Shown in pieces: positions 17,150 to 22,574 of a stretch of DNA of 64,000 nucleotides. Under the pieces are notes generated by a model, which was given only the letters and a program-made list of their open reading frames with translations, searched no databases and had not been told where the DNA came from. Source of the stretch: Rubrivirga sp. SAORIC476. GTDB taxonomy: Bacteria; Bacteroidota; Rhodothermia; Rhodothermales; Rubricoccaceae. A program made the translations under genes and the position numbers. Numbering within the stretch: the first letter of the stretch is position 1; every line of letters begins with the position of its first letter. The stretch spans positions 1 through 64,000 of the forward strand of contig NZ_MVOI01000015.1 in NCBI RefSeq assembly GCF_002283555.1, given 5' to 3'.

Positions 17150-18343
17150 ATGCGCGCGGACCTCATCGTGGTCGGCGGCGGCCTCGTCGGGCTGGCGACG
17201 GCACGCGCGGCGCTGGCGGCACGTCCCGGCCTCCGCGTCACTGTGGTCGAGAAGGAGCCCGCCGTCGGGCGCCACCAGTCGAGCCGCAACTCGGGCGTGC
17301 TCCACGCGGGGCTCTACTACCGGCCCGGCAGCCGCAAGGCCGCGCTCTGCCAAGCGGGCAAGGCGCGGATGGAGGCCTTCTGCGACGCCGAGGGCATCCC
17401 GTTCGTCCGCTCCGGAAAGGTGGTCGTGGCCGTCGACGCCTCCGAGGTGCCCCGTCTCGACGCGCTGCAAGAGCGGGCCGCCCAGAACGGCGTGGCCGTC
17501 GAGCGGCTGGACGCCGACGGACTCCGGGAGCACGAACCCCACGCGGCGGGCGTCGCCGCGCTCTGGGTGCCGTCCACCGGCGTGACCGATTTCGGTGCCG
17601 TGGCCGACCGCATGGCGCTCCGCCTGCTGGAGGCGGGCGCGGAGTTGCGCACCGGCACGTCGGTGGTGGGCGGACGCGAGACGGCTGCGGGCGTGGTCGT
17701 GGAAACCGACCGCGGCCCTATCGAAGCGCGTGCGCTCGTGACCTGCGCGGGCCTCTGGGCCGACCGCGTCGCGAAGCAGTTCGGCGCCCGGCCGTCCGTG
17801 GAGCTGGTCCCCTTCCGAGGCGAGTACGTCGCGCTCCGCCCCGCGGCGGCCGGCCTCGTGCACGGGCTGATCTACCCGGTGCCGGACCCCGCCCTCCCCT
17901 TCCTCGGCGTTCACCTCACGCGCCGCATCGATGGGACCGTGGACGCCGGGCCGAGCGCGGCGCTGGCGTTCGCCCGCGACGGCTACCGTCTCCGCGACGA
18001 TCGCCTGGGCGACCTCGGCGAGGCGCTCGGGTCGGTTGCGTTCCGGCGGCTCGCGCGGCGGCACCTGCGCTCCGGGCTCGGCGAGCTGGGCCGGTCGCTG
18101 AGCCTGCGCGTGTTCTGGAACGCTGCACGGCGGCTCGTCCCGGAGTTGGCGCTCGACGACCTCGTCCGCGCCCCGTCCGGCGTCCGCGCTCAGGCCCTCC
18201 ACCCTGACGGCACGCTGGCGGACGACTTCGTCATCGAGTCCACTGCGCGGGCGGTCCACGTGATCAACGCGCCCAGCCCGGCGGCGACGGCGTCCCTCGC
18301 GGTCGGGGAGGTGATCGCGGAGCAGGTCCTCGCCCGGCTGTAA
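17150..18343 (+). CDS. lhgO: L-2-hydroxyglutarate oxidase
   Basis: FAD-dependent oxidation of L-2-hydroxyglutarate to 2-oxoglutarate, a metabolite-repair or lysine-catabolism role. The 397-residue protein starts with the dinucleotide-binding VVGGGLVGLATARA, then VVEKEPAVGRHQSSRNSGVLHAGLYY, a strong LhgO mark, ALVTCAGLWADRVA, VPFRGEYVAL and the C-terminal INAPSPAATASLAVGE. Length is normal. The ATG starts at the base after the stop of the preceding T9SS gene. Confidence 0.92.
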   Translation: MRADLIVVGGGLVGLATARAALAARPGLRVTVVEKEPAVGRHQSSRNSGVLHAGLYYRPGSRKAALCQAGKARMEAFCDAEGIPFVRSGKVVVAVDASEVPRLDALQERAAQNGVAVERLDADGLREHEPHAAGVAALWVPSTGVTDFGAVADRMALRLLEAGAELRTGTSVVGGRETAAGVVVETDRGPIEARALVTCAGLWADRVAKQFGARPSVELVPFRGEYVALRPAAAGLVHGLIYPVPDPALPFLGVHLTRRIDGTVDAGPSAALAFARDGYRLRDDRLGDLGEALGSVAFRRLARRHLRSGLGELGRSLSLRVFWNAARRLVPELALDDLVRAPSGVRAQALHPDGTLADDFVIESTARAVHVINAPSPAATASLAVGEVIAEQVLARL

Positions 18344-18413: not shown

Positions 18414-18689
18414 TCAGGGACTGGCAGGCCCGACGTCGAGCGTGCCGGCGGCCCGCTCCTGTATCGCCCGTTTTTCGTCTTCCGAGAAGCTCGCCCAGTG
18501 ACGGTCGTCCAGCGCGCCGACGAGGGCATAGAGCAGGTGCCGCGTCGCGCCCGCATAGCGGTGCCGGACCATCCGATAGGCCATCACTGCGCCTACCTCG
18601 CGGAGGTCGTCGGCGGAGTGGATGCCTACGTCGGCGAGCATCCAGTCGGAGACCGGCCCCAGGTTGCGGAGGCTCGACGGGAGGGCCAC
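18414..18689 (-). CDS. TfoX C-terminal-domain protein
   Basis: A 91-residue stand-alone TfoX/Sxy C-terminal domain. The match is clear in SLRNLGPVSDWMLADVGIHS and LREVGAVMAYRMV, then LLYALVGALDDRHWASF and the final EDEKRAI. In gamma-proteobacteria TfoX promotes competence gene expression; the C-terminal domain alone is widespread and its role is undefined. The GTG start at 18689 lies five bases after the BLUF gene stop, making it the last gene of a regulator-kinase-BLUF-TfoX operon. It might relay the BLUF or kinase signal; that is inference. Confidence 0.85.
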   Translation of the reverse strand: MALPSSLRNLGPVSDWMLADVGIHSADDLREVGAVMAYRMVRHRYAGATRHLLYALVGALDDRHWASFSEDEKRAIQERAAGTLDVGPASP

Positions 18690-18694
18690 GCGAC

Positions 18695-19078
18695 CTATGC
18701 GGGTGGCGGGCCGAGGCGGTCGACGAGGTGGTCGAAGCCCTCGGGGTCGTCCGCGGCGCGGCGCTGGAAGGCCATCGTCCAGTCGCCGAAGGTGCGCTGC
18801 CGGATCGCTCCCTCCATCTTGACCTCCACGTTCACGTGTCGCGTCGCCGGGAGGATGCGTTGCTCGAACACGTCGCGCACGGCGTCTCGCGGTCCCTCGA
18901 TCCGCTGGACGAAGGTGCCGGGACGCTCCTCGGCCACGGGGTCCTCGTAGGCGAGGAAGCCGGTCACGCCGAGGCGGCGGTTGTAGGCGCGCGACACCTC
19001 CAGGAGGGTGTCCAGTTCGGCCTCCGTGAACGGGCTGACCGCCTCGGAGACGTAGACGAGGGCGTAGAGATCGTCCAC
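18695..19078 (-). CDS. Short BLUF-domain blue-light photoreceptor
   Basis: A 127-residue protein consisting of one BLUF (blue light using FAD) domain. The residues needed for the photocycle are visible: Tyr9 in ALVYVSEA, Asn33 in YNRRLGVTG, Gln58 in TFVQRIEGP, and Trp100/Met102 in GDWTMAF. A nine-residue insertion (about 45-54) lengthens the loop before the Gln strand. Short BLUF proteins have no output domain and act through partners. Start is GTG 19078, three bases after the histidine kinase stop. The TfoX-like gene follows after five bases, and these partners are the natural candidates for its output. Confidence 0.9.
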   Translation of the reverse strand: MDDLYALVYVSEAVSPFTEAELDTLLEVSRAYNRRLGVTGFLAYEDPVAEERPGTFVQRIEGPRDAVRDVFEQRILPATRHVNVEVKMEGAIRQRTFGDWTMAFQRRAADDPEGFDHLVDRLGPPPA

Positions 19079-19081
19079 AGC

Positions 19082-20578
19082 TCAGGCGGTTTCCGTGCGC
19101 GCGCTCACCGCCGCGCCGTCGCCACCGGGCACCGACTCGGCGAGCGGCAGTTCGAACCAGAAGCGCGTGCCTCGGTTCTTGGTGCTCTCGACGTGGATCG
19201 TCGAGCCGTGCGCTTCGAGGATCTGGCGGACGATGGCGAGGCCGAGCCCGGTGCCCCCCTCCTTGCGCGAACGCGCCGTGTCGACCCTGTAGAAGCGCTC
19301 GAAGATGCGGTCGAGGTGCTCCTCGGGGATGCCGCGGCCCGTGTCGACGACCTCCACGCGCGCCTTGTCCATGTGGCGGCGCATCCGGCAGCGTACCGAC
19401 CCTTCGTCGGAATACGCGATGGCGTTGTCGATCAGGTTGGTCAGCACCTGCCGGATCCGGTTGCGGTCGGCCACGACCAGCAGCGGGTCGTTGGCGTAGG
19501 TCAGTTCCAGCCCCTTCGCCTCGGCCTTCGGGTCGAGCATCTCCCCGATCTCGCCGATGAGGTCCTGGAGGTCGAACTCGGTCGGGCGGATCGAGTCCTC
19601 ACGGTACTCCAGCTTGGCGATCTCGATCAGGTCCGAGAACAGGCTGTTGAGGCGCTGAAGGTTCGCCAACCCCTTCTGAGCGTAGCGTTTGCGCTGTTCG
19701 GTGGGTAGCGTGTCTGAGCCGAGCGCTTCGAGGTAGCCGAAGACGGCGAAGATGGGGTTCTTCACCTCGTGGCTCACGTTGCCGATGAACTCGTTCTGGA
19801 TGCGCTGCATCCGCCGGAGTTCGTGGATGTCCGCCCGGAACCGGCCCGCCATGTGGTTCAGGCTGCGGGCGAGGTCCTGAAACTCGGCAGCGCGCGTGCG
19901 GACCGTGATGCGGCCGTCGAGGTCGCCTTCGTTGATCTGCTGCGCGCTCCGGGTGATCGCCGTCAGCGGGCGCGTGACCTGACGGGCGGCCGTCCACGCG
20001 CCGACGAGCGCCGTCAGCAGCGCCAGCACCATGCCCACCGCCAGCGCCGCCTGGAGCGACTGGATGGCCCGGAGCAGTTGCGGCACTGGCTCTCCGATGC
20101 GGACGATCAGGCCCGACTCGGGCCGCACGAGCGCCATGTGGAGTTGCATGCCTCCATCGACGCCCCGCCGCTCGGCGAAGCCGACCTGGTCGTCTGCGGC
20201 GAGTGCCTCGACCACCTCCTCGCGCTCGAAGAACGGGGTCGGGTCGCCGCCGAGGTCGGCAGAGGGCCCGAAGTCGCCGATGACCTCGTCGCGGGTGGCG
20301 ATCCCGACATCGACCTGCGTCAGCTCAGCGATTTGCTGCGCGAGGTCCAGCCGCGACGCGCGGTCGGGCTGGGCTTCGAGCTGGACGGCGAGTCGCTCGG
20401 CCTGCTCGCGGACCGTCTCCCGGGCGGCATCGCGGACCTGCCCCTGGAGGATCAGGAATGCGTACAGCCCGACGCCCACCACCGCCAGCCCCACGAAAAA
20501 GGCAAACGTGAGCATCATCCACGTCTGGGTCGAGGCCCGACGTGGATAAACGAGTTCGCGGACGTTGCGCCAGCGCAT
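19082..20578 (-). CDS. Membrane sensor histidine kinase
   Basis: A 498-residue HAMP-HisKA-HATPase sensor kinase. One transmembrane segment (about 18-40) precedes a periplasmic sensor region (to about 165) and a second segment. Then come HAMP (RQVTRPLTAITRSAQQINEGD), HisKA with phospho-acceptor in NVSHEVKNPIFAVFGYL (His about 269), and the ATPase boxes DNAIAYSDEG, DTGRGIPEEHLDRIFERFY and GGTGLGLAIVRQI. ATG 20578 is chosen over GTG 20638 because a perfect hairpin lies between them. The cognate response regulator is directly upstream and BLUF/TfoX genes are downstream. The signal is unknown. Confidence 0.92.
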   Translation of the reverse strand: MRWRNVRELVYPRRASTQTWMMLTFAFFVGLAVVGVGLYAFLILQGQVRDAARETVREQAERLAVQLEAQPDRASRLDLAQQIAELTQVDVGIATRDEVIGDFGPSADLGGDPTPFFEREEVVEALAADDQVGFAERRGVDGGMQLHMALVRPESGLIVRIGEPVPQLLRAIQSLQAALAVGMVLALLTALVGAWTAARQVTRPLTAITRSAQQINEGDLDGRITVRTRAAEFQDLARSLNHMAGRFRADIHELRRMQRIQNEFIGNVSHEVKNPIFAVFGYLEALGSDTLPTEQRKRYAQKGLANLQRLNSLFSDLIEIAKLEYREDSIRPTEFDLQDLIGEIGEMLDPKAEAKGLELTYANDPLLVVADRNRIRQVLTNLIDNAIAYSDEGSVRCRMRRHMDKARVEVVDTGRGIPEEHLDRIFERFYRVDTARSRKEGGTGLGLAIVRQILEAHGSTIHVESTKNRGTRFWFELPLAESVPGGDGAAVSARTETA

Positions 20579-20604
20579 GGTGTCGCGGAACGTAGGACGC
20601 AGAG

Positions 20605-20628
20605 CGTGGGGGGCGGTCTCCCCCCACG
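20605..20628. other. Perfect intercistronic hairpin between regulator and kinase genes
   Basis: CGTGGGGGG (20605-20613) pairs with CCCCCCACG (20620-20628) across a six-base loop. It lies between the response regulator stop (20645) and the likely kinase ATG (20578). No T-run follows on the minus strand, so attenuation or mRNA processing is as likely as termination. Confidence 0.6.
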
Positions 20629-20644
20629 TTCTACGCACGACGGC

Positions 20645-21349
20645 CTAGGCCTCGGACTCTGCCTCTTCGACGAACCGGTAGCCGACGCCGCGGACCGTCT
20701 GGATGTGCTTGGCGAACTCGCCCAGCTTCTCCCGGAGGTTCTTGATGTGCGCGTCGACGGTCCGCTCGGTCACCATCATGGCGTCCTTCCAGATCGTCTC
20801 AAGCAGTTGCTGGCGGGTGAACGCCTTGCGAGGGTGGCGGACGAGGTAGCGAAGCAGTTCGAACTCCGTCAGCGTCAGACCGAGGTCGTCGCCGTCGAGG
20901 GTGGCGCGGTACTCGTCCTCGTAGATGGTGAGGCCAGCGACGGACAGCGTCTTGCTCTCCTCGGTGCCCGTCCGGCGCAGCACGGCCCGGATGTTGGCGA
21001 GCACGACCTTCGGGCTGACCGGCTTGGTCAGGTACTGGTCGGCGTTGGCGAGGCCCTCCAGCTGGTCGGACTCCTCCGTCTTCGCCGTCATCATGATGAT
21101 CGGGATCTTCTCCGTCTCGACACGGCCGCGGAGGCGCTTGGCGATCTCGAAGCCGCTCATGCCAGGGAGCATCACGTCGAGGAGGATCGCGTCGATGTCC
21201 GGGCTGGCCTTCGAGAGAGCCTCGTCGGCATCGTAGGCGGTGAGGACGTTGTAGCCCTCCTCGCGGAGGAAGTGGGAGATGATCTCGACGACGTCCTCCT
21301 CGTCATCGACGACGAGAATGGTGATCTCCTGCGGGGTGGAGGTAGCCAT
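20645..21349 (-). CDS. OmpR/PhoB-type response regulator
   Basis: A 234-residue two-component regulator. The receiver domain (about 8-125) has the acidic pair in VVDDEED, phospho-acceptor Asp58 in AILLDVMLPG, Thr88 in MMTAK and Lys109 in YLTKP. The winged-helix DNA-binding domain follows (about 140-230: LTLTEFELLRYLVRHPRKAFTR, VTERTVDAHIKNLREKLG, TVRGVGYRF). ATG 21349 gives the usual short N terminus. It is the first gene of the operon with the histidine kinase, BLUF and TfoX genes. A TATATCGA sequence lies in the upstream spacer, a weak promoter candidate. Confidence 0.94.
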   Translation of the reverse strand: MATSTPQEITILVVDDEEDVVEIISHFLREEGYNVLTAYDADEALSKASPDIDAILLDVMLPGMSGFEIAKRLRGRVETEKIPIIMMTAKTEESDQLEGLANADQYLTKPVSPKVVLANIRAVLRRTGTEESKTLSVAGLTIYEDEYRATLDGDDLGLTLTEFELLRYLVRHPRKAFTRQQLLETIWKDAMMVTERTVDAHIKNLREKLGEFAKHIQTVRGVGYRFVEEAESEA

Positions 21350-21464: not shown

Positions 21465-22574
21465 TCAGCCCTCCCGCAGGACGCGGTGGACGCGCGCCGT
21501 GAGCCCCGTCGGGAGGGTGTACGCGAAGGTCCCGGCGCTCGCCGCCGCCTCTTCGATGCTCGGCCCGCCCGGCCCGAACACGACCGCCTCGGCGCCGACC
21601 TCGACCGAGCCTCCCCACCCGCCGGGGTCGCCGAGGGAAACCATCGTCATGTCCATGCAGACGCGCCCGACAATCGCTGCCCGCCGTCCCGCGATGCCGA
21701 CCTCGCCGCGGTTCGAGAGCGACCGCGGGATCCCGTCGGCGTACCCGACCGCCAGCGTGGCGATGCGCGTCGGGCGCTCGGCGACCCACGTCCGCCCGTA
21801 GCTGACCGACTCGCCGGGGGCGACGGTCTGGAGGTGGACCACGCGGGCGATGAGCCGCATCGCCGCGCGGAGATCGGTCATCGCGGGGGCCATCGACGGG
21901 TCGGACGCCATTCCGTAGAGGACGCCTCCGAGGCGGGTCAGCGCGGGACGCGACGTGACGGGCGGCAGGCGAACGTGCGCCGGGCCGTTGGCGACGTGCA
22001 CCAGCGGCGGCGCGTCCGCGCCGAGGTCGCGCAGGACGCCGTCGAAGCGGCGGACCTGGAGGAACGCGAAGCTGGGGTCGGCGGCGTCGGCCGTGGCGAG
22101 GTGTGTCCACAGGGCCACCACCTCGACTCCGGCCGCGGTCAGGCGCCGCACCGTCTCGGCGGCCTCCCCCGGCGCCACGCCGAGGCGGTGCATGCCGGTG
22201 TCCACCTTGACGTGGACCCGCACCGACGGCGTCCGCGCGATCACAGCCTCAGCCCCCTCCGGGGACGCCACGACTGCGTCGAGGCCGTGGCGTTCGTAGG
22301 CGGGCAGGAAGTCTGGGAGCGGCGCCGCAAGAACCAGGGTGCGGGCCTCGATCCCTGCATCGCGCAACGCGATGGCCTCGGGCAGCGTCGCGACCGCCAG
22401 CCACGTAACACCCTCCGCCAGCAGCACGCGTGATACGGGGACCGCCCCGTGGCCGTAGGCGTTGGCCTTGACGACGCCCATCACGGCGTCCCGACGAAGC
22501 GCGGCGAGCGTGCGGACGTTGTGGCGGATGGCGCCGAGGTCGGTCTCGGCGCGCAGGGCGACGGGCGGGAGCAC
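21465..22574 (-). CDS. alr: Alanine racemase
   Basis: PLP-dependent racemase that supplies D-alanine for peptidoglycan. The 369-residue protein shows the PLP lysine in GVVKANAYGHG (Lys36), KVDTGMHRLGV, the second catalytic region SVSYGRTWVA, LAVGYADGIPRSLSNRG and GRVCMDMTMV. Length is normal. Start is GTG 22574. It is upstream of the two-component operon on the same strand but separated by 115 bases. Confidence 0.95.
   Translation of the reverse strand: MLPPVALRAETDLGAIRHNVRTLAALRRDAVMGVVKANAYGHGAVPVSRVLLAEGVTWLAVATLPEAIALRDAGIEARTLVLAAPLPDFLPAYERHGLDAVVASPEGAEAVIARTPSVRVHVKVDTGMHRLGVAPGEAAETVRRLTAAGVEVVALWTHLATADAADPSFAFLQVRRFDGVLRDLGADAPPLVHVANGPAHVRLPPVTSRPALTRLGGVLYGMASDPSMAPAMTDLRAAMRLIARVVHLQTVAPGESVSYGRTWVAERPTRIATLAVGYADGIPRSLSNRGEVGIAGRRAAIVGRVCMDMTMVSLGDPGGWGGSVEVGAEAVVFGPGGPSIEEAAASAGTFAYTLPTGLTARVHRVLREG

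Follow-up and report, generated by a model that had tools for sequence, protein, structure and literature searches.

A short BLUF photoreceptor gene, probably a private insertion, in a WalK/PhoR-like two-component operon of Rubrivirga sp. SAORIC476

The four-gene locus

The window, a stretch of 64,000 nucleotides from Rubrivirga sp. SAORIC476, contains four consecutive genes on the minus strand. They are listed here in the direction of transcription, followed by the upstream neighbour on the same strand and by the convergent gene that bounds the operon.

20645..21349, minus strand: OmpR/PhoB-type response regulator, 234 aa; Response_reg (1e-24) and Trans_reg_C (1.2e-25) in Pfam
19082..20578, minus strand: WalK/PhoR-like membrane histidine kinase, 498 aa; HAMP, HisKA and HATPase_c in Pfam, start placed by homologues and codon usage
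18695..19078, minus strand: short BLUF photoreceptor, 127 aa; PF04940 (1.9e-21), between kinase and TfoX_C in the window genome only
18414..18689, minus strand: stand-alone TfoX_C-domain protein, 91 aa; PF04994 (1.3e-21)
21465..22574, minus strand: alanine racemase gene alr, upstream neighbour; TIGR00492, 277.9 bits against a cut-off of 168
17150..18343, plus strand: L-2-hydroxyglutarate oxidase, convergent; NF008726, 489 bits against a cut-off of 299

The four open reading frames, their strand, their order and their short gaps are as reported in the preliminary description of this DNA, and the Pfam searches confirm the identities of the products. Both the GC content of the third codon position (0.85-0.93) and a codon-usage gene caller indicate that all four are coding. 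The BLUF gene follows the kinase gene after 3 bases, its GTG start being the last codon of TGA gct GTG, and the TfoX_C gene follows after 5 bases in the same manner (TAG gtcgc GTG). These two gaps had been described correctly, whereas the kinase start had been placed at GTG 20638; homologues and codon usage favour ATG 20578, which gives a protein of 498 aa and leaves a gap of about 66 bases between regulator and kinase. The Rfam search returned no element at the locus.

The two-component pair

The kinase contains two transmembrane helices, an extracytoplasmic sensor of alpha/beta type, and the HAMP, HisKA and HATPase_c domains, according to Pfam and the predicted model. Its H, N and G boxes are present as invariant alignment columns, and the best Foldseek match of the model is WalK. 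However, every listed cut-off of the NCBIfam equivalogs was missed (PhoB, 227.7 against 296; WalK, 222.9 against 725), so that neither the name PhoBR nor the name WalKR can be assigned. The PhoB cut-off is passed by no regulator of the window genome, the next-best PhoB-like ones included. The identification of the pair as PhoBR was considered and rejected, given these scores and the location of the PhoU gene on another contig.

The comparison set comprised the window genome with 79 other genomes of the order, and 395 genomes sampled from the phylum. A match to the kinase was found in all 80 genomes of the order. Of the loci around its orthologues in the order, 29 were examined; all have the regulator immediately upstream, and 26 have alr upstream as well. 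The regulator itself is 96-97% identical in the congeners. Regulator and kinase form an ancient, order-wide WalK/PhoR-like two-component pair behind alr.

Integrity of the BLUF sensor

Most BLUF proteins belong to the short type (PMC4844311). The 127-aa product of the window is one of these, BLUF being the sole domain detected (76.4 bits against a Pfam cut-off of 25), with no fused effector domain. The residues Tyr9, Asn33, Gln58, Trp100 and Met102, which had been read as intact from the sequence, align with the photocycle residues of the solved structures of Tll0078, BlrB and AppA. Across the 35 BLUF domains of the order, Tyr9, Asn33, Gln58 and Met102 are invariant, and Trp100 is present in 34. 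Two features of the protein stand out: the hairpin leading into the glutamine strand is longer by seven residues (at about positions 47-53), and the tail is short, with about 25 residues following Met102. A model built from the single sequence is of poor quality (pLDDT 54), yet BLUF chains make up all of its twenty best PDB matches. The aligned and conserved photocycle residues, together with these structural matches, make it likely that the protein is photoactive, flavin binding and a red-shifted signalling state being predictions.

The position behind the kinase

In contrast to the pair itself, the gene that follows the kinase varies. Only in the family of the window species, and only in part of it, does TfoX_C occur behind the kinase. 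In two congeners (G003 and G001), the GTG of TfoX_C comes immediately after the stop codon of the kinase gene, and in the window the BLUF gene sits exactly at that junction. TfoX_C also lies close behind the kinase in G005 and G008, with no BLUF gene between, while in G006 it is found about 2.9 kb from the kinase, with two large genes in between. The convergent L-2-hydroxyglutarate oxidase gene is placed alike in G003, G001, G005 and G008. Of the eight other members of the family, three (G002, G004 and G007) lack TfoX_C. The TfoX_C frame of G008 (L100:7575-8007) is a decaying or disrupted copy whose two fragments lie about 200 bases from each other. In G007 (L092:5796-6020) and G004 (L170:7830-8054), a 74-aa gene overlaps or abuts the kinase stop, in the slot that otherwise holds TfoX_C. 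Since the gene found there differs between genera, the slot behind the kinase behaves as an accessory position.

Among the 79 other genomes of the order, 15 carry BLUF genes, in no case close to the kinase or to TfoX_C. Likewise, no BLUF-TfoX_C neighbourhood was found in the other genomes checked, and TfoX_C is missing from all of 27 additional genomes of the phylum that carry BLUF. The order of regulator, kinase, BLUF and TfoX_C, whose conservation had been proposed as a check, is thus found in the window genome alone; the relatives examined have no BLUF gene at this place. A conserved four-gene functional unit was accordingly rejected, as the neighbourhood comparison places BLUF in one genome and shows TfoX_C retained without it.

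Origin of the BLUF gene

Neither the 79 other genomes of the order nor the 395 genomes of the phylum sample yielded an orthologue of the operon BLUF gene; the best match in that sample reached about 46% identity. In the tree of the BLUF domains of the order, it forms a single long branch. The search for a close relative on mobile elements gave a best plasmid match of 43% identity, and no match at all in phages.

The window genome harbours three other BLUF genes, two of them arranged head to tail, which have relatives throughout the genus. These three are the established BLUF proteins of the group, and the operon BLUF is the newcomer. The pair consists of two related short BLUF genes (L162:6609-7443; G000:C3, ~1540.6-1541.4 kb) and is arranged likewise in G002 (L175), while in G001 (L177) and G003 (L164) the two members lie near each other. 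It is this pair, not the operon gene, that the genus conserves as its BLUF set. Close to the pair is a nucleotidyltransferase-like gene (MDAMILAAGLGTRLRPL...), and G004 and G007 have a similar one close to BLUF genes that belong to a different subfamily.

As no relative examined has a BLUF gene at the junction, an intact short BLUF gene was probably gained there, precisely between kinase and TfoX_C, as a private insertion in the window lineage. The outgroups that have kinase and TfoX_C but no BLUF make a gain in this lineage the simplest history. The BLUF arrangement is known from one genome, and it could, though less probably, be a long-standing combination of kinase, BLUF and TfoX_C that was lost in the other lineages. 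The best reading is that of a BLUF gene recently gained, probably photoactive, and expressed with a housekeeping two-component operon.

Proposed mechanism and possible partners

In some members of the family, a small TfoX_C gene accompanies the kinase as an accessory immediately downstream of it. At this kinase/TfoX_C junction, the window lineage alone would have acquired its complete short BLUF gene. The precision of this insertion suggests that the gene is most likely co-transcribed with the operon and translated by coupling, both being predictions. Blue light would switch the flavin hydrogen-bond network (Tyr9-Gln58), and this would alter the contact with a partner protein, by analogy with other short BLUF proteins.

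Regarding the partner, the evidence for a coupling of the BLUF protein to the kinase or to TfoX_C is their membership in one operon. We somewhat favour the operon as a mere slot for expression, the partner being encoded elsewhere or held in common with the other three BLUF proteins of the genome, over gating of either neighbour by the BLUF protein. Genes spaced 3-5 bases apart are often functional partners, which counts against the expression-slot reading. Neighbouring genes can be BLUF targets, as illustrated by Spongiibacter, in which a BLUF gene beside a chemotaxis cluster controls that cluster (PMC8805636).

A broader proposal is that, in this one species, a separate short BLUF protein has been plugged into the WalK/PhoR-like system, with or without TfoX_C as intermediary, so that an envelope regulator would gain a blue-light input without any fusion; we regard this as unlikely. 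More specifically, the BLUF protein could act as a light-input subunit that binds the cytoplasmic HAMP/DHp region of the kinase in one light state, shifting the kinase/phosphatase balance and adding blue light to the extracytoplasmic signal. The position of the BLUF gene directly behind the kinase, after a 3-base gap, is consistent with this, and a kinase with an extracytoplasmic sensor of its own could receive a second input from a cytosolic protein. Nevertheless, the kinase occurs without an operon BLUF in all relatives seen, and the relative-rate test gives no acceleration for it in the window lineage (21 private changes against 15, p 0.4). A histidine kinase gene also precedes one other BLUF gene of the order, at a distance of about 100 bases (L010, G078), but that kinase is of a different type and only about 31% identical. 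Taken together, direct gating of the kinase is unlikely. The locus in question (L010:2-1917; G078:C16) comprises a soluble-type histidine kinase gene and a 247-aa reading frame in which an N-terminal region precedes the BLUF domain.

It is quite unlikely that BLUF and TfoX_C form a light-dependent pair, in which TfoX_C would be a small helix-hairpin-helix-like effector binding DNA or protein. The 5-base gap between the genes speaks for such a pair, as does the fact that TfoX_C, the sole copy in the genome, has changed somewhat faster in the window species (11 private changes against 4 in the congeners; p 0.12, not significant in the relative-rate test). This excess could be an adaptation to BLUF, which would argue against the expression-slot reading. 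However, the congeners keep an intact TfoX_C without an operon BLUF, and none of the other genomes checked places the two genes together. The relative-rate tests gave no significant sign of co-evolution of the kinase or TfoX_C with BLUF.

Finally, control of competence (DNA uptake) by blue light through TfoX, raised in the preliminary description, is highly improbable: it derives from the Pfam domain name and nothing else, and the genome contains no TfoX_N domain, hence no two-domain regulator of the Sxy/TfoX type. The identity of a TfoX/Sxy competence regulator (TfoX_N plus TfoX_C) was rejected, as TfoX_C alone was found, and we know of no competence role for stand-alone TfoX_C proteins.

Significance

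A light-gated pathway of WalK/PhoR type in the window species is possible. If the BLUF protein gates the kinase, the mere insertion of a gene would have given a conserved two-component pathway a light sensor, a natural case relevant to optogenetics and to how signalling evolves, with the BLUF-free congeners as a clean control. If it does not, the gene would be an accessory riding on a housekeeping operon.

Comparison with known systems

The literature search yielded no paper treating BLUF together with TfoX, or Rubrivirga together with BLUF, and the view that no system of such composition had been described agrees with the literature searched. The composition is undescribed, the genes are real and the sensor is intact, but the arrangement is peculiar to one genome and is probably a private insertion, not a conserved system.

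The BLUF protein resembles PixD (Slr1694/Tll0078), BlrB and BlsA in being a stand-alone BLUF domain with the full set of photocycle residues. It differs from them in its gene position, in a two-component operon behind the kinase, as well as in the 7-residue insertion and the short tail described above. The regulator and kinase share with WalK/WalR and PhoR/PhoB a membrane kinase with an extracytoplasmic alpha/beta sensor, HAMP, HisKA and HATPase_c, and an OmpR-type regulator, but fall below every listed equivalog cut-off. The TfoX_C protein is similar to the stand-alone TfoX_C-like proteins of PDB entries 3bqt and 3mab, which consist of a single small domain of about 90 aa, and is distinguished by the placement of its gene behind a two-component operon. 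The principle of a histidine kinase under blue-light input is common to LOV histidine kinases and to the system considered here; the former carry the flavin domain within the kinase polypeptide, whereas in the window the BLUF protein is separate and its coupling to the kinase is hypothetical.
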